From the NCBI GenBank assembly GCA_018304045.1, contig JAGVWZ010000010.1, positions 1 through 56,654 on the forward strand: DNA of 56,654 nucleotides, given 5' to 3'. Positions 44,469 through 52,708 of this stretch are shown here, in pieces. A model generated the notes under the pieces. The model did not search any database. It was not told the origin of the DNA and was given only the letters and a program-made list of their open reading frames with translations. The position numbers and the translations under genes were made by a program. Position 1 is the first letter of the stretch. Each line of letters starts with the position of its first letter. The stretch is from Candidatus Pacearchaeota archaeon. Its GTDB lineage: Archaea; Nanobdellota; Nanobdellia; Pacearchaeales; GW2011-AR1.

Positions 44469-44705
44469 ATGGTGAATAAAAATAATAACTTAGTCATTGG
44501 AATAGTTGTTATACTCGTTGTTATTTTTCTTTTAGGAATTTTTGGTAGTGGTTATGGGATGATGAATAGTGGCTACGGAATGATGGGAGGATTGAATGGT
44601 GGCTATGGTTATGGAATGATGGCTTTTGGATGGATTACTTGGATATTAATAATTGCACTTATTATTGCTGCTATTTATTGGTTAATTAAAACTGCAAATA
44701 AATAA
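44469..44705 (+). CDS. Met/Gly-rich small membrane protein (copper-island type)
   Basis: 78 residues: TM helix (LVIGIVVILVVIFLLGIFG), a loop GSGYGMMNSGYGMMGGLNG followed by GYGYGMM, and a second TM helix (WITWILIIALIIAAIYWLI). The same WITWIL/WITYIL...IIAAIYWL end occurs in the 75-residue protein at 50093, so the two are paralogues at either side of the island. Paired Met residues outside the membrane could bind Cu(I); inference. Confidence 0.65.
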   Translation: MVNKNNNLVIGIVVILVVIFLLGIFGSGYGMMNSGYGMMGGLNGGYGYGMMAFGWITWILIIALIIAAIYWLIKTANK

Positions 44706-45650: not shown

Positions 45651-47912
45651 TTAGAACTTTTTCTTTTTCATTAAAAGAGTATTGAGAACTACACTTACTG
45701 ATGAAGCAGCCATTGCTCCTCCTGCAATTATTGGACTTAATAACCAACCTGTTGAGGGATATAGAACTCCTGCTGCAATAGGTATTCCAAGTGCATTATA
45801 AAATAATGCCCAGAACATGTTTTGTTTTATTTTTTTAATTGTTATTCTGCTTAGTCTTATTGCTCTTACAACATCTGTTGTTTTATTGTTCATTAAAACT
45901 ATATTTCCTGTTTCCATTGCTACATCTGTTCCACTTCCTATTGCTATTCCTATATCTGCCTGAGCTAATGCAGGAGCATCATTGATACCATCTCCAACCA
46001 TTGCAACTTTTCCTTTTTTTTGTAATTGTTTAACATGCTTTGCCTTGTCTTCTGGAAGAACTTCTGAAATTACATGATTGATCCCTAATTGTTTTGCAAT
46101 TGCATTTGCAGTTCTTTTATTATCTCCTGTTATCATGTAGACGAGGATTTTTTCTTTTTGCAGCATTTTTACTGCTTCTATAGAATCTTTTCTAGGAGTA
46201 TCTGCTATCCCTATGAATCCTTCAACTTTTTTGTCAATGCAAAGAACAACAACTGTTTTTCCATTTTCTTCTAATTCTGTAATCTTCTTTTCAAAAGAGC
46301 CAAGGTCTGCTAATTTTCTTATGCTGAGAAAATTTTCATTGCTTTCAGATTTTCGAGGTGATAAAAAACCTTTTTTAAGAAGGTTTTTTACATATTCAGG
46401 TTTTCCTACAATTATTTTATTTTTTTTCAACATTCCTTCAACACCATGCCCTGGAATAGCTTTAAAATTCTTTATATCTTCTAATTTGATATTTTTTTCC
46501 TTAGTCTTGTTTACTATTGCCTGAGCTAATGGATGTTCGCTGAATTGCTCTACACTTGCTGCAAATTTCAAAACCTCAGTTTCATTCATATTTTTTACTG
46601 AAATGATATCTGTAACTTCTGGTTTTCCTTGGGTTAGGGTTCCTGTTTTATCAAAAACAACTGCATATACTTTATGGGCTGTTTCTAATGCATCTCCACC
46701 TTTGATTAAAATGCCTTTTTCAGCGCCTTTTCCTGTTCCAACCATTATGGCAGTTGGAGTTGCTAATCCTAGTGCACAGGGACAGGCAATAACTAGGACA
46801 GAAACTGCAATTATAAGTGAGAATTCAAAGGTTTGTCCTATCCAAAAATACCAGATTAAAAATGAAGCTATTGCTATTAGAATAACTATTGGAACAAAAT
46901 AGGCTGAAATTCTATCTGCAAACTTTTGAATTGGTGCTTTTTTTCCTTGAGCATCTTCTATTAATTTTATAATGAGTGCTAGGGTTGAATTTGCTCCGAC
47001 TTTTGTTGCTTTGAATTTAAAACTTCCATGTTTATTTATTGTAGCACCGATTACTGTATCATTTTTCTTTTTTTCAACAGGCATTGATTCTCCTGTTATC
47101 ATTGATTCATCAATTGCACTTTCTCCTTCAATAATGATTCCATCTACTGGAACTTTTTCACCTGGCTTTACAATAACAATATCTCCCATAACTACACTAT
47201 CAATTGCAATTTTTTCTTCTTTTCCATTTCTTATAACTGTTGCTATTTTTGGAGATAGATTCATTAATTTTTTAATTGCTTCGCTGGTTTTTCCCTTTGC
47301 AACTGCTTCTAGGTATCTTCCTAATATCACAAAGGTGATAAGCACTGCTGCTGCTTCAAAATACTGATCTCCTATTGGATTAAATAATATAACATACAAA
47401 CTATAGAAATAGGCTGCACTTGTTCCAATTGCTATTAATGTATCCATATTTGCAGATTTGTTTTTTAATGCTCCAAATGCACTTTTATAAATATCCCATC
47501 CAACTATAAATTGAACAGGAGTTGCTAATAGGAATAAAATAAGATTTCTGTGAGGGACATCTATTCCCACTAGCATTAAAACCATACCAATTATTAATGC
47601 TGGAAAAGCAAATATAAAACTAAAAATAAATGTATTCATTAACTTTTTAATTTCTTTTTGTTTTTTCTGATTTTCATATTCAGGAGATCTTTCTGAATCT
47701 GATAGAATTCTTGCTTTATATCCTAGGCTTTCTATTGAGCTTATTATAGAATTTTCAGAAGATTTTGTTTCATCAAATTCAATGGTTGCTTTTTCTGTTG
47801 TTTGATTTACATTAACATACTTTATTCCAGGCTCTCTTTGAATTCTCTTTGTAATAAGCATTCCACAGCTTGCGCAGTGCATACCAGTTATATCCAATGT
47901 AATCTTTTTCAT
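45651..47912 (-). CDS. copA: Cu(+)-exporting P1B-type ATPase CopA
   Basis: 753 residues: N-terminal HMA domain (GMHCASC, C13 and C16), eight membrane helices with CPC at 377-379 (VIACPCALGLATP), actuator TGES (about 273), phosphorylation motif DKTGT (421), HP loop (SVEQFSEHPLAQAI) and GDGINDAPAL. The C-terminal helix includes ALFYNALGIPIAAG and GWLLSPIIAGGAMAASSVSVVLN, the YN and MxxS elements of Cu(I) pumps. Start is one base after the stop of the upstream membrane protein; last gene of the ArsR operon. Confidence 0.96.
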   Translation of the reverse strand: MKKITLDITGMHCASCGMLITKRIQREPGIKYVNVNQTTEKATIEFDETKSSENSIISSIESLGYKARILSDSERSPEYENQKKQKEIKKLMNTFIFSFIFAFPALIIGMVLMLVGIDVPHRNLILFLLATPVQFIVGWDIYKSAFGALKNKSANMDTLIAIGTSAAYFYSLYVILFNPIGDQYFEAAAVLITFVILGRYLEAVAKGKTSEAIKKLMNLSPKIATVIRNGKEEKIAIDSVVMGDIVIVKPGEKVPVDGIIIEGESAIDESMITGESMPVEKKKNDTVIGATINKHGSFKFKATKVGANSTLALIIKLIEDAQGKKAPIQKFADRISAYFVPIVILIAIASFLIWYFWIGQTFEFSLIIAVSVLVIACPCALGLATPTAIMVGTGKGAEKGILIKGGDALETAHKVYAVVFDKTGTLTQGKPEVTDIISVKNMNETEVLKFAASVEQFSEHPLAQAIVNKTKEKNIKLEDIKNFKAIPGHGVEGMLKKNKIIVGKPEYVKNLLKKGFLSPRKSESNENFLSIRKLADLGSFEKKITELEENGKTVVVLCIDKKVEGFIGIADTPRKDSIEAVKMLQKEKILVYMITGDNKRTANAIAKQLGINHVISEVLPEDKAKHVKQLQKKGKVAMVGDGINDAPALAQADIGIAIGSGTDVAMETGNIVLMNNKTTDVVRAIRLSRITIKKIKQNMFWALFYNALGIPIAAGVLYPSTGWLLSPIIAGGAMAASSVSVVLNTLLMKKKKF

Positions 47913-47913
47913 A

Positions 47914-48543
47914 TTAATTTAATTCCTCACTGGTTAATGGAATAAGATGAACTGTATCTAAAATGCTATTTGTTTTATTCATAACTCCAACAATTACTAT
48001 GTTTTTTCCAAAGAAATTTTTTATAGGGTCCCCTATATTTGTGAAAAGACCTTCTTCCCTCATTGTTTTTGCTTCTTCATATCCTAAAATAAGTGGGTAA
48101 TATTTTTGTCCCCCAATAGAATGAATTTCGTATTCATTTATGTCTCCTTCTGATAATTGGATTTCCATAGGTTCCTCTTTAGTATAATAATAAAATAGTT
48201 TTATATATCCTTCTGAATTTTTCTTTGTGAATATTTTATTTTCTTGTTCAATATGATTGAATAGTGAATTAGAAGTTTGTTTTGTTTCGGGAGAATTTTC
48301 TTTTATGGATTCTTTGGTAATTGTATTTGTTTCAGTTGTATTATTTTCTTTTATAGAATTATAACCTGGTGCCATTTCTTCAGGAGTTTTTGAGTCTACA
48401 GATTCTTTTAATTTCATCCCTGTTGCATCGATTTTGTTTATGGCATTAAAATAGAAAATAGTTCCAATTATTAAAATTAAAATAGTTAGAACTAATGCTA
48501 ATAGTTTGCCTTTTATTGGATTTGTTGATTCATTTTGCTTAAT
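47914..48543 (-). CDS. Membrane-anchored protein between arsR and copA, probable AUU start
   Basis: From ATG 48417 the frame gives only 167 residues and lacks an anchor, but upstream it remains open through NPIKGKLLALVLTILILIIGTIFYFNAIN, a clear TM helix. No ATG, GTG or TTG lies in that part. The first codon after GGAGACAAAA is ATT 48543, which overlaps the arsR stop as ATTAA. With AUU as start the protein has 209 residues: cytoplasmic tail, TM, Thr/Glu-rich linker and a C-terminal domain (GYIKLFYYYTKEEPMEIQLSEGDINEYEIHSIGGQKYYPLIL). A base change from ATG or a frameshift is the alternative. It may modulate CopA. Confidence 0.6.
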   Translation of the reverse strand: MKQNESTNPIKGKLLALVLTILILIIGTIFYFNAINKIDATGMKLKESVDSKTPEEMAPGYNSIKENNTTETNTITKESIKENSPETKQTSNSLFNHIEQENKIFTKKNSEGYIKLFYYYTKEEPMEIQLSEGDINEYEIHSIGGQKYYPLILGYEEAKTMREEGLFTNIGDPIKNFFGKNIVIVGVMNKTNSILDTVHLIPLTSEELN

Positions 48544-48904
48544 TTTTGTCTCCTTCTCTTTTTCTGATATTTATTTTTTCACATTTTTTACAATTTATTT
48601 TTATATTGGTATTAAATTGTGAAAATGCATCTCTTAATATGCACCAGCAGAACTTGTCTGAAAGCTCAAAGAATTTTTCTTTGCCATCTTTTCTATATAT
48701 TACAATTCCAATATCATTTAGTTGTTTTAATTGATGGGAAATTGCAGATAAGGTCATTTTATCTCTTCCAACAAAATTATATATTTCATTGACATTTTTT
48801 GGATTTTCAGCTATGCTTAATAAAATATGTAGTCTTGTTTTATCAGCAAGACTAGAAAAGAATTGCATTACTTTTTCTTCTGATTGTTCTATTTTTTGTT
48901 TCAT
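48539..48904 (-). CDS. ArsR/SmtB-family metal-responsive repressor
   Basis: 121 residues: winged helix with FSSLADKTRLHILLSIAENPKNVNEIY and TLSAISHQLKQLNDIGIVIYRKDGK. The recognition-helix S-x-S-x-SHHL-like motif is LSAISHQL. Candidate metal ligands are C86 and C88 (CWC) and C105 and C108 (CKKC) in the C-terminal part. ATG 48904 is preferred to the TTG at 48928. ATTTAAATA lies about 24 nt before it and TTGAATAATTGCTCAA, an imperfect palindrome, lies between. It probably represses itself, the membrane protein and copA until metal binds. Confidence 0.82.
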   Translation of the reverse strand: MKQKIEQSEEKVMQFFSSLADKTRLHILLSIAENPKNVNEIYNFVGRDKMTLSAISHQLKQLNDIGIVIYRKDGKEKFFELSDKFCWCILRDAFSQFNTNIKINCKKCEKINIRKREGDKN

Positions 48905-48938
48905 GTTAATAGTTGAGCAATTATTCAAGTATTTAAAT
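48905..48938. promoter_or_regulatory. arsR promoter with palindromic candidate operator
   Basis: ATTTAAATA box and, downstream of it, TTGA-N8-TCAA centred near 48920. ArsR-type repressors commonly bind AT-rich TTGAA/TTCAA palindromes at this position. Confidence 0.4.
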
Positions 48939-48995: not shown

Positions 48996-49358
48996 TTATT
49001 TTACAATTAGTTTTCCACTCATAGCTTTATGTCCTTCTCCACACATATTTGTACAATACCAAGTAAACTCTCCTGTTTTATTTGCTGTAAATTCTAATAT
49101 TTCATTATCCCTTAGTCCTAAATCTGGAATTCTTATTCCATGGAGTACATCTGTGTTGTTTATTATTATTTTTACTTTATCTCCTTTATTGACTGTTATT
49201 GTATCTGGAGAATAGCCAAATTTAAATGCCTTTACTGTGAATTCTTTAATTTCAGGGTTTAGTTCTTTAATAGAATTACCTGTAATTGATTTTACAATGA
49301 AAATTCCAAATATTGCTAGGATTATTATAATTGTTATTGCTATTATGTATTTTTTCAT
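48996..49358 (-). CDS. Membrane-anchored cupredoxin with CuA-type site
   Basis: 120 residues: TM helix (YIIAITIIIILAIFGIFIV), then a cupredoxin domain. Ligands are H73 (VLHGIRIPDLG) and the loop YCTNMCGEGHKAMSG with C102, C106, E108, H110 and M113, the full set of the binuclear CuA centre of cytochrome oxidase subunit II and N2O reductase. No oxidase genes are in this window, so a copper carrier or electron-transfer role is open. Shine-Dalgarno AAGGAGGT precedes the ATG. Confidence 0.85.
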   Translation of the reverse strand: MKKYIIAITIIIILAIFGIFIVKSITGNSIKELNPEIKEFTVKAFKFGYSPDTITVNKGDKVKIIINNTDVLHGIRIPDLGLRDNEILEFTANKTGEFTWYCTNMCGEGHKAMSGKLIVK

Positions 49359-49399: not shown

Positions 49400-49885
49400 T
49401 TACTCAACTATTATTGTTCCTGTTCCCATGTGCATTCCACAGGCGTAGACAAAAGAACCTTTTTTATCTGGTGTAAATAAAATAGTATTAGATGGTTTTG
49501 AAGAAGTTTGCCTTACTCCTAAATCTTTAATTACAAATGTTCTGAAACATCCCCTTATTGAACTATCCAGAGTTATTTCAACTGGAATGCCTTCTTTTAC
49601 GGTTATAGTTTGGGGATAATAGTTATAATTCTTAAAACTAAGAGTTATTTTTTGGACTTCACCACTATTATTTGGATTAGCTATGGAATTTCCATTTATT
49701 GTATTATTAAAAAAGAAAAATCCTCCTATTAATAATAAAGATATTATTATGACTATAAATATTGTTTTTGCGTGGTTTTTTTTAGGTTCTGAAATATTCT
49801 GATGCTTGGCTGAATTATGCATATTTAGGGCATCCTGATTAGGAAAATTCCTATTGCAAGCTTCACAAAATGTTTTTTCTGCCAT
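49400..49885 (-). CDS. C2H2 zinc finger - TM - cupredoxin fusion
   Basis: 161 residues from ATG 49885 (the frame is open from a TTG at 49918). An N-terminal zinc finger (C7, C10, H23, H28; CEACNRNFPNQDALNMHNSAKH) faces the cytoplasm, one TM helix follows (IFIVIIISLLLIGGFFFF), then an extracytoplasmic cupredoxin (SFKNYNYYPQTITVKEG, RGCFRTFVIKDLG, FVYACGMHMGTGTI). Cys and Met/His in YACGMHM are probable copper ligands. The pairing of a finger with a cupredoxin through the membrane suggests signalling or scaffolding; inference. Confidence 0.75.
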   Translation of the reverse strand: MAEKTFCEACNRNFPNQDALNMHNSAKHQNISEPKKNHAKTIFIVIIISLLLIGGFFFFNNTINGNSIANPNNSGEVQKITLSFKNYNYYPQTITVKEGIPVEITLDSSIRGCFRTFVIKDLGVRQTSSKPSNTILFTPDKKGSFVYACGMHMGTGTIIVE

Positions 49886-49901
49886 TTTTTTATTTTGATA
49901 A

Positions 49902-50096
49902 TTAGGCTTGATAGCCAAGTTCTTTGATTATATCTTTAATTTGTTGTTCTGTAATTTTTTTCTCATCAAATTCTATTGAAGATTTGCCACTTTCTTGAAC
50001 TTGTGCTTTTATCCCTTTGTCTTGTAATTCACTTTCTATGAGTTTTGAACAACTTGAACAATGCATCCCTTTTATATTTAGATTTATTTTTTTCAT
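49902..50096 (-). CDS. CopZ-like HMA copper chaperone, 64 residues
   Basis: MKKINLNIKGMHCSSCSKLI gives the MxCxxC metal site (C13, C16), then a beta-alpha-beta-beta-alpha-beta fold ending KDIIKELGYQ, a complete HMA domain. It delivers Cu(I) to ATPases such as CopA. ATG 50096 overlaps the previous stop as ATGA and is preceded by GGGAGG; the frame is open to 50177 but that part is the previous gene. Confidence 0.85.
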   Translation of the reverse strand: MKKINLNIKGMHCSSCSKLIESELQDKGIKAQVQESGKSSIEFDEKKITEQQIKDIIKELGYQA

Positions 50097-50320
50097 TTTA
50101 ACCTCCCTTTTGCATTTGTAAATAGCCAGTATATTCCTGCTATTATCAAAAGAATAACTAGTATGTATGTTATCCAACCAATAATTACAAATCCTGAGCC
50201 ATAGTAACCTGACATCATGCCATTAATTCCCCCACAGGTTTGTGGAGTGTATGCTTGCTCTGCAAATACAGAGACTATGCTAATTACTATAATAAAGATA
50301 AGTATGGATGTTTTTTTCAT
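50093..50320 (-). CDS. Small secreted/membrane protein, paralogue of the 44469 protein
   Basis: 75 residues: signal-like helix (SILIFIIVISIVSVFAEQA), a loop with Cys and Met (TCGGINGMMSGYYGSG) and a TM helix (IIGWITYILVILLIIAGIYWLF). The C-terminal helix matches the 44469 protein. GGGAG before the ATG; overlaps the HMA gene by ATGA. Confidence 0.68.
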   Translation of the reverse strand: MKKTSILIFIIVISIVSVFAEQAYTPQTCGGINGMMSGYYGSGFVIIGWITYILVILLIIAGIYWLFTNAKGRLK

Positions 50321-50323
50321 TGT

Positions 50324-50479
50324 TTATTTCTCCCTTTTTCCTGATTTTAAGTAGTATATTCCTGAGATTATAAGGATTGTTAACAAAACCCCTAATGTAA
50401 TCCAAAAGAGATTATTTATTATTGGATTTGAACCATAGAGTCCTCCATGCATTGGACAACTATAGGTTGAGTCTGCCAT
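50324..50479 (-). CDS. 51-residue membrane protein with CPMH motif
   Basis: A gene read directly from the gap: MADSTYSCPMHGGLYGSN, then PIINNLFWITLGVLLTILIISGIYYLK and a basic end. CPMH is a known heavy-metal-binding (YHS/CPMH-type) motif. It starts within the stop of the TauE fusion (TAATG) and ends 3 nt before the 75-residue gene, so it belongs to the operon. One TM helix. Confidence 0.7.
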   Translation of the reverse strand: MADSTYSCPMHGGLYGSNPIINNLFWITLGVLLTILIISGIYYLKSGKREK

Positions 50480-52092
50480 TATCTAGCTCCTCCTCCGCAT
50501 CCACAGCCGCCTCCACTACTTCCTCCACAACTTCCTCCTCCACAGCCCCCTCCATTTGCACCCATGTTGCATGTTGATCCTGCTTTAGGTATTGCTGCTT
50601 TTACTTGCGCTTGATTTGCTGTTCCTGATTCTGTTACAATAAAACTTCCTCTTAACATACCCATACCGCAGCTAAATGGAATTGTTCCTTCTTTATCTGG
50701 GGTGAATTCAATTACATTTAATCCTTGTTTTAATTGTTTGTTAATATTATATTGATTTAAGATTAGTTCACTATTACATCCTGTAAGTTGTTTGACATTG
50801 ACATTCCATTTGACAGGAACTCCTTTTTTTAATACAAAGGAATTTGGTGAATAACCTGATCCGCTTACATCCATGTTTACTATTTGATAACCATTTTCAA
50901 TAATTACTCCTGAAGTATCTGGATTTATGTTTGTTCCTGAGATTTTTTCTTTGATTGAATCAAAATTATAATTGTTTCCTGTTAATGAAAGTCCCCTATT
51001 AATCATTATTAAACCTAGTATTAGGACAACTATTGCTGAAAATTTTAATATTTTTTTAGTTGTACCATGGCTTATTACTGTTGCCAAGCTTCCGAATCCT
51101 AACATTATTGGAAGAGTTCCTAGACCAAAAACAGCTAGGCTTGTTGAACCTTTGATAAAACTACCTGTTCCTGCTGCATATAGATACATTGCTTGAAGTG
51201 GTCCGCAGGCAATAAATAATCCATTTAATAATCCTGTTACAAATGGACCTTTGTATGGACCCTTTGCATTTTGGCCTGCTTTTAATGTGAATTTTGTTAA
51301 GAATTTTGGATTAAATTGAAATTTTCTAAAGAATTTTAATCCAAACATAGATAATGCATAGAATATCATAAATATTCCTGCGAAAATAGCAACATAGCCT
51401 CTTAGGGAAGTACTAAATGCAATAAACCCACCAATTAATCCAAATATTCCTCCGATAATTGCATAGGATAAAACTTTTGAGCCACCATAGACAAGATGCT
51501 GTTTGAAACTCTTATGGCCATTTATTGCATTTTTAGAGGTATAGGATACTACAAATCCTCCACACATGGAAATGCAATGAAATCCAGTAAGTATTCCAAC
51601 TAAAAATAATAGAAAAATACTTGCATTATCTCCTAGGTCCTGGACAGTCATTTCTGGCATTGATATGTGTCTTAATAAAAAGAAATAAAGAATAAAAATT
51701 AATAGGCCTACTGAGGCAATTAACATAAGCAAACCTAGCTTATTTCCTGAGGGGGTTTGTTTATATGCCTTTATTAGGGCATGTTCAGTTTTTTCTTCTT
51801 TAGCATCTTCTTTTTCTTTTTGGTTTATTTTATGATAGATGGTTTTGTTTTTTATTTTGTCAGGGATTTCTTTAGTTTCCTCTTCTTCAACATTATATCT
51901 AACTTCATAACCAAGCTTTTCTAATCTTTCTTTTATTTCCTTTTCTGAAATTTTTTCAGAGTCAAAATCAATCTCTACATTTTCTTTAGAATAACTTGCA
52001 GATATTTCATTAACTTGATTTTGGAATTCTCTTTCTATGAGCATTGCGCAGGAGTTGCAATGCATTCCTTTTATTTTGTAAGTTTTTTTCAT
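50479..52092 (-). CDS. HMA - TauE/SafE(DsbD-like) - cupredoxin fusion with Cys/Gly tail
   Basis: 537 residues in four parts. Residues 1-70: HMA domain with C12 and C15 (GMHCNSC). About 160-370: seven to eight membrane helices of the TauE/SafE or DsbD_2 type, with the motif GFHCISMCGG (C173, C177) and ACGPLQ (C296). About 390-490: cupredoxin (GYSPNSFVLKKGVPVKWNVN, LTGCN, FSCGMGM; C439, C475, M477). 508-537: a tail of Cys and Gly (GGGCGGGSCGGSSGGGCGCG). First gene of the metal operon. It may collect Cu outside and hand it on or reduce it; inference. Confidence 0.85.
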   Translation of the reverse strand: MKKTYKIKGMHCNSCAMLIEREFQNQVNEISASYSKENVEIDFDSEKISEKEIKERLEKLGYEVRYNVEEEETKEIPDKIKNKTIYHKINQKEKEDAKEEKTEHALIKAYKQTPSGNKLGLLMLIASVGLLIFILYFFLLRHISMPEMTVQDLGDNASIFLLFLVGILTGFHCISMCGGFVVSYTSKNAINGHKSFKQHLVYGGSKVLSYAIIGGIFGLIGGFIAFSTSLRGYVAIFAGIFMIFYALSMFGLKFFRKFQFNPKFLTKFTLKAGQNAKGPYKGPFVTGLLNGLFIACGPLQAMYLYAAGTGSFIKGSTSLAVFGLGTLPIMLGFGSLATVISHGTTKKILKFSAIVVLILGLIMINRGLSLTGNNYNFDSIKEKISGTNINPDTSGVIIENGYQIVNMDVSGSGYSPNSFVLKKGVPVKWNVNVKQLTGCNSELILNQYNINKQLKQGLNVIEFTPDKEGTIPFSCGMGMLRGSFIVTESGTANQAQVKAAIPKAGSTCNMGANGGGCGGGSCGGSSGGGCGCGGGAR

Positions 52093-52210: not shown

Positions 52211-52708
52211 TTAGTTGTTTTTTAAGATAACTATGTTTGTCATCCCCCTTCTTTTTCTTTCTATTAGTTCTTGTGCTTCCAGACTATCAAGAATTCTTGT
52301 TATTTTTACTTTATTGAAGCCTGTTTTTTCTATTAGTTCTGATTGAAATATAGAACCTTTGTTTTCTAAAAGTGTATTTAGGATTTTCTTTTCTTCTTCA
52401 TTTAAATTTTCTAGGGAAGTTTTGTTGAATTTTTTTGGTTCAAGGGATGCAAGAGGTTTAATTCTTTTAATTACTATTCTTTCATTTTCTTTTGAAAATA
52501 TGAAAAATAATCCTATTAAAAATACTATCCCTGTAATTACTAAACTTAGATAGGTTTGAGTTTTTATTGTTTTATACATTGTGCAAGAATCTCCATGAGC
52601 ACAGGAGTCATTGACAATAGCAGTCATTCCCTGATTGAATATAATTATTACAAATATAATCAAGACAGCTATTCCAAGTATTAGAAAACCGACATTTTTA
52701 TTTTTCAT
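52211..52708 (-). CDS. Membrane-bound winged-helix regulator
   Basis: 165 residues: two TM helices (NVGFLILGIAVLIIFVIIIF; YLSLVITGIVFLIGLFFIF) separated by an extracytoplasmic loop with Cys/His (DSCAHGDSCTMYK), and a C-terminal MarR-like winged helix (LNEEEKKILNTLLENKGSIFQSELIEKTGFNKVKITRILDSLEAQELIERK). The arrangement is a one-component membrane sensor; the CAHGDSC loop could sense metal. It is the first minus-strand gene of the island and probably regulates it. Confidence 0.75.
   Translation of the reverse strand: MKNKNVGFLILGIAVLIIFVIIIFNQGMTAIVNDSCAHGDSCTMYKTIKTQTYLSLVITGIVFLIGLFFIFSKENERIVIKRIKPLASLEPKKFNKTSLENLNEEEKKILNTLLENKGSIFQSELIEKTGFNKVKITRILDSLEAQELIERKRRGMTNIVILKNN

Follow-up and report, generated by a model that had tools for sequence, protein, structure and literature searches.

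A single 537-residue protein of a Candidatus Pacearchaeota archaeon (GCA_018304045.1) joins an HMA domain, a DsbD-like membrane domain, a CupA-type cupredoxin and a Gly/Cys tail, and it probably helps to keep copper reduced outside the cell within a copper-defence operon, a reading that draws on metal-binding residues kept in dozens of relatives. The three-domain core is a widespread, largely unstudied arrangement, and the conserved CGCGG tail is the distinctive part of the protein, new relative to that core. A literature search, which reached few subscription papers, found no functional study of an HMA-DsbD_2-cupredoxin fusion or of a relative. Coordinates refer to the window, the whole stretch of 56,654 nucleotides of contig JAGVWZ010000010.1 that was analysed. 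An earlier note had described a four-part fusion; all four parts are present, together with an extra TM helix that had gone unmentioned:

50479-52092, minus strand: fusion gene, HMA - TM - DsbD_2 - cupredoxin - Gly/Cys tail (open reading frame, translation, Pfam)
51904-52083, minus strand: HMA domain, residues 4-63 (PF00403, 1.6e-11)
51670-51738, minus strand: extra TM helix, residues 119-141 (family hydropathy; helix 118-141 in the AF2 model)
51010-51609, minus strand: DsbD_2 membrane domain, residues 162-361 (PF13386, 1.6e-43; DsbD profile alignment)
50635-50892, minus strand: CupA-type cupredoxin, residues 401-486 (PF13473, Cupredoxin_1, 8.8e-8)
50482-50583, minus strand: Gly/Cys tail, residues 504-537, with the CxC core GCGCGG (translation; conserved in the clade)

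The open reading frame is real, starts with ATG and has exactly the bounds first claimed for it, and a domain search of the kind proposed earlier places HMA, DsbD_2 and cupredoxin each above the curated Pfam cut-offs, the tail having no passing model. The HMA domain scores 44.9 bits against PF00403 (cut-off 24.8) and contains MxCxxC; its motif GMHCNSC supplies C12 and C15, the CxxC that had been put forward as the inner copper site, and a long charged linker and the extra helix (119-141) separate it from DsbD_2. The whole-protein AF2 model has a mean pLDDT of 62, which is higher across the HMA and cupredoxin domains.

Conservation was followed in two alignments, the first comprising 40 DPANN sequences of the close clade, the window's included (Nanoarchaeota, Woesearchaeota and uncultured archaeon by record title; one of them, L010, reads frameshifted near its end). 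C12, C15, H172, C173, M176, C177, H199, C296, C439 and C475 are invariant in all 40, M477 and M479 are kept in 39, and the tail cysteines C530, C532 and C508 in 39, 38 and 36 respectively, so that the pattern is not a product of chance; cysteines varying among homologues, which would have told against the earlier note, were not what the alignment showed. The second alignment, of 95 rows, adds a second DPANN clade and bacteria, and here C12/C15, C173, C296, C439, C475, M477 and M479 are kept almost throughout. Judged by E-values, members of the close clade occur in about 34 of the 279 genomes sampled from the phylum and members of the distant one in about 21; a peptide-pattern scan of the genome collection reaches close relatives only.

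The membrane domain had been called TauE/DsbD-like, and of the two names it is DsbD that stands. DsbD_2 matches with 149.4 bits against a cut-off of 24.9 and the DsbD_TM profile also matches above its Pfam cut-off (residues 160-366, 6.3e-11), whereas TauE/SafE (PF01925) has no Pfam match in the fusion at E<=0.1 and identity as a TauE/SafE transporter was therefore rejected. The cysteines of the MCGG and ACGP motifs are confirmed as C177 and C296, and to these is added C173 (HCxxMCGG), which the earlier note does not mention and which is conserved more widely than C177. In a profile alignment C173 and C296 fall on C182 and C304 of the E. coli DsbD precursor, that is C163 and C285 of the mature protein, the established redox pair of DsbD. 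Both are present in every row of the 95-row alignment that covers them; H172, M176, C177, P298 and M363 are largely specific to the window protein's own clade, and the second DPANN clade and most CPR homologues keep only C173/C296, often with H199, of the TM ligands. Judged from these alignments, the membrane domain is homologous to DsbD, its redox cysteine pair included. It shares this homology and the aligned redox pair with the DsbD/CcdA/ScsB thiol reductases, from which the fusion differs in having HMA and cupredoxin instead of a thioredoxin-like output domain; no thioredoxin-like domain such as that at the DsbD C-terminus has a Pfam match in it. CcdA/DsbD is not among the best 60 PDB-sequence matches by profile, and the AF2 model of the membrane part (pLDDT 67.7) has no PDB fold match at E<=0.001; with a weak model and no significant match, recognition of the membrane fold from structure was abandoned.

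The predicted topology, which rests on hydropathy and positive-inside charge, the membrane AF2 model being weak (pLDDT ~68), is N inside, 7 TM and C outside. In family hydropathy the TM peaks are compatible with seven helices, loops 2, 4 and 6 have net charges of +2.5, +6.2 and +1.3 against -0.8, +1.1 and -0.6 for loops 1, 3 and 5, and the segment beyond the last TM is acidic (-2.4). The K/R-rich loops 2, 4 and 6 would thus be inside, placing HMA in the cytoplasm and the cupredoxin and tail outside, the sidedness that the earlier note had assumed; the converse, a cupredoxin or tail on the cytoplasmic side, is not predicted for either.

The best solved-structure match of the cupredoxin by sequence is CupA of S. 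pneumoniae (2mry/4f2e, E 2.9e-12), and C439, C475, M477 and M479 align with CupA C74, C111, M113 and M115; the top Foldseek match of the AF2 model is also 4f2e (E 1.4e-6, TMt 0.89). The Cys and Met ligands expected of the outer cupredoxin are these four residues, and by its aligned sequence the domain is of the CupA type with a Cu(I) Cys2Met2 ligand set. No His occurs within residues 401-486 of the translation, so the domain is not a blue-copper protein, and a type 1 electron carrier was rejected as its two-His-one-Cys ligand set is absent. CupA and the N-terminal domain of the S. pneumoniae CopA (4f2e, 2mry, 4f2f) share the four Cu(I) ligands and the cupredoxin fold with the fusion, and CupA is, like the fusion cupredoxin, membrane-tethered and copA-linked. 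However, CupA is described as acting inside the cell and is without HMA, DsbD_2 and tail, whereas charge bias predicts the fusion cupredoxin to be outside.

How such a protein might work had been left as movement of copper or electrons in either direction; the evidence leans towards electrons moving outward, since the cysteines kept family-wide in the membrane are those of the DsbD redox pair, and places carriage of Cu(I) second. The reading we rank first, tentatively and at a little under even chances, is an outward transmembrane thiol relay dedicated to copper, in which we infer the flow of electrons. Cytoplasmic thiols, either thioredoxin or the HMA CxxC, would reduce the C173-C296 pair of DsbD_2, which would hand electrons outward to C439/C475 of the cupredoxin and to the CxC tail; the ligands of cupredoxin and tail would thereby stay reduced and copper would stay as Cu(I) after its export by the neighbouring CopA, whilst HMA would hold Cu(I) at the inner face and the flexible CGCGG tail could serve as an exchange arm or as an additional Cu(I) site. 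Its ranking draws on the kept redox pair together with two precedents, the cysteine pair of CupA, which reduces Cu2+ and must then be re-reduced from an electron source stated to be unknown (PMC5646241), and ScsB, a DsbD relative that maintains ScsC, a Cu(I)-binding protein, in its reduced state (PMC8900818). The fusion also holds the only DsbD_TM/DsbD_2 domain detected in the genome, no second one being found elsewhere in it, and the genome has three thioredoxin matches and no match to a heme-copper oxidase; absences from this genome are provisional, as it is ~86% complete. Against the relay, there is no thioredoxin-like domain to pass electrons on as there is in DsbD, HMA suits the delivery of Cu(I) better than the donation of electrons, and a membrane site of two cysteines could itself bind Cu(I). 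It is possible, though we would hold it with some doubt, that the relay is of a new kind: one transmembrane protein combining copper reductase and chaperone, whose DsbD-type pair drives the CupA-type cupredoxin, with the recurrent and sequence-specific CGCGG tail as the Cu(I) exchange arm.

The same membrane residues can be read as a path for the metal, in which Cu(I) would pass from HMA to C173/C296, with H172, M176, C177 and other TM ligands, and on to the outer cupredoxin and tail. One chain has Cu(I)-type ligands at both faces as well as in the membrane, H172, M176, C177, H199, M249 and M363 are invariant or nearly so in the tail-bearing clade (40-sequence alignment), and HMA is either fused or an adjacent gene in several phyla; the extra TM ligands are, however, missing from the second DPANN clade and most CPR homologues, and a CopA in the same operon already exports Cu(I). 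We regard this carrier as possible but rather doubtful, and give a similarly guarded place to its proposed mode, in which the DsbD-like fold would alternate its opening and form an ATP-independent exit or exchange route beside CopA.

The surroundings of the gene are those of a copper operon, which, with the domain matches and the conservation of ligands, upholds the copper role first proposed. On the same strand the fusion is followed by a series of five genes and preceded by another:

52211-52708, minus strand: membrane-bound winged-helix protein, a probable regulator, upstream of the fusion (DUF7343/MarR matches)
49902-50177, minus strand: CopZ-like stand-alone HMA (PF00403, 2.2e-7)
49400-49918, minus strand: zinc-finger - TM - CupA-type cupredoxin protein (PF13473, 1.2e-12)
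48996-49358, minus strand: small CuA-like cupredoxin, CxxxCxxxHxxM (NCBIfam L-NosZ 4.5e-18 and CoxB 1.7e-12, both below cut-offs)
48539-48928, minus strand: ArsR-family metalloregulator (PF01022, 2.3e-8; HTH_metalloreg 5.6e-15, at 54.9 bits just under its 55-bit cut-off)
45651-47912, minus strand: CopA-like copper-exporting P1B-type ATPase (TIGR01525 1.5e-204 and TIGR01511 1.5e-193, above cut-offs)

A CopA ATPase lies within ~6 kb on either side of the fusion in 50 of 60 loci, which also favours the electron relay, and several fusions among the other 10 are at contig ends. The winged-helix protein, found near the fusion in 40/60 loci, has a CxHGxxCxM loop between two TM helices with C36 and C42 kept in 41/41; it is the probable regulator of the operon and a candidate outward-facing sensor of copper or thiols. 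The true start of the CopZ-like gene is probably an ATG near 50099 and not the listed ORF start. Two small Gly/Tyr/Met-rich membrane proteins with no clear family match, at 44469-44705 (plus strand) and 50093-50320 (minus strand), also lie by the operon.

Two further explanations bear on this neighbourhood. In the first the membrane part would be mainly an anchor, with cupredoxin and tail sequestering Cu(I) outside and HMA inside as a buffer or chaperone without net flow. The outer module can evidently act alone, as cupredoxins with the same tail stand by themselves in related genomes in which no fusion was detected, and the operon includes the zinc-finger-TM-cupredoxin, whose relatives occur near 16/60 fusions and keep C124, C160, M162 and M164 in 17/17 (finger CxxC in 15/17). 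Such buffering is nevertheless improbable, a mere anchor having no need of the invariant C173/C296. Less probable still is that tail and cupredoxin catch copper outside and deliver it to the cell interior, or else to a cuproenzyme, for which the CuA-like protein is one candidate. The operon encodes that protein, which resembles NosZ-like DPANN proteins (PMC10936187) and keeps its ligands in 8/8, and a DsbD-family gene of Nitrososphaera viennensis is upregulated under copper limitation (PMC7785015); yet the CuA-like gene lies near only 7/60 fusions, no heme-copper oxidase has a match in the genome (~86% complete), and CopA and the ArsR-type regulator nearby point to detoxification.

The HMA-DsbD_2-cupredoxin core is also found in CPR bacteria, the second DPANN clade and Acetoanaerobium, mostly without the tail. 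In Acetoanaerobium noterae (Bacillota, NZ_CP154629.1) it is encoded directly before copA, with the same cupredoxin ligands and HCxxMCGG/CGP as the fusion but without its Gly/Cys tail. The CPR and second-clade DPANN proteins, often beside copA, have the three domains, C173/C296 and C439/C475/M477/M479 in common with the fusion, from which they differ in having only ~28-38% identity, in lacking H172/M176/C177, in usually being tailless and, in some, in having two cupredoxins; the CPR homologues L152, L154-L158, L162, L164 and L169 have a second, C-terminal cupredoxin-like C-x-M-G motif, so that two cupredoxins apparently follow one another. A match at E<=1e-15 is present in 109 of the 287 genomes sampled from the phylum of a Woesebacteria genome, and most such matches span DsbD_2 and cupredoxin. 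In Woesebacteria, Chlorohelix and Deinococcus the protein is DsbD_2-cupredoxin and HMA is encoded by the adjacent gene, and this pattern of fused or next-gene HMA ties the parts together in function. The COG2836 proteins of gut Firmicutes, listed with HMA, DsbD_2 and DUF2318 and inferred to belong to the CsoR copper regulon (PMC4938975), are alike in their copper context and in the order HMA - DsbD_2 - further metal domain, with DUF2318 where the fusion has cupredoxin.

The tail ends ...GSTCNMGANGGGCGGGSCGGSSGGGCGCGGGAR and has five cysteines (508, 517, 522, 530 and 532) rather than the six or so first counted. Most tails in the 40-sequence DPANN alignment carry CGCG, and the 1.16 Mb genome has a single instance of codons specifying GCGCG, at the fusion gene. 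In genomes of the window's family without a reported fusion, stand-alone cupredoxins end in the same tail, ...CGxxGGGCGCGG, which suggests that the tail follows the outer cupredoxin and not the membrane domain; stand-alone CupA-like cupredoxins with a terminal CGCGG, or a close variant of it, were seen at L029:1501-2043, L033:1501-2022, L032, L034, L035, L041 and others. A tree built from the DsbD_2-cupredoxin part by a quick method with SH-aLRT places the tail-bearing rows together with three CPR bacteria in a single clade; apart from it, the tail also occurs in two further CPR rows, L163 and L178. The starred branches require no fewer than two changes in the tail, which on this tree arose at least twice. 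CGCGG rSAM-modified peptides exist as a RiPP-type family, but the tail matches no NCBIfam model, and none of these peptides at E<=10, short tails being poorly detected. The superoxide dismutase copper chaperone has a CxC motif near its C-terminus that binds or passes Cu(I), and by analogy the tail may be a Cu(I) exchange arm or an extra Cu(I) site.

A short CxC tail therefore recurs on copper cupredoxins, and an elaborate copper-handling operon is retained by reduced-genome archaea in which no heme-copper oxidase was detected. The DsbD-type domain fused to a CupA-type cupredoxin could be the electron source that was stated to be unknown for CupA (PMC5646241), and because this fusion is shared by many CPR bacteria and DPANN archaea, that question becomes directly testable.
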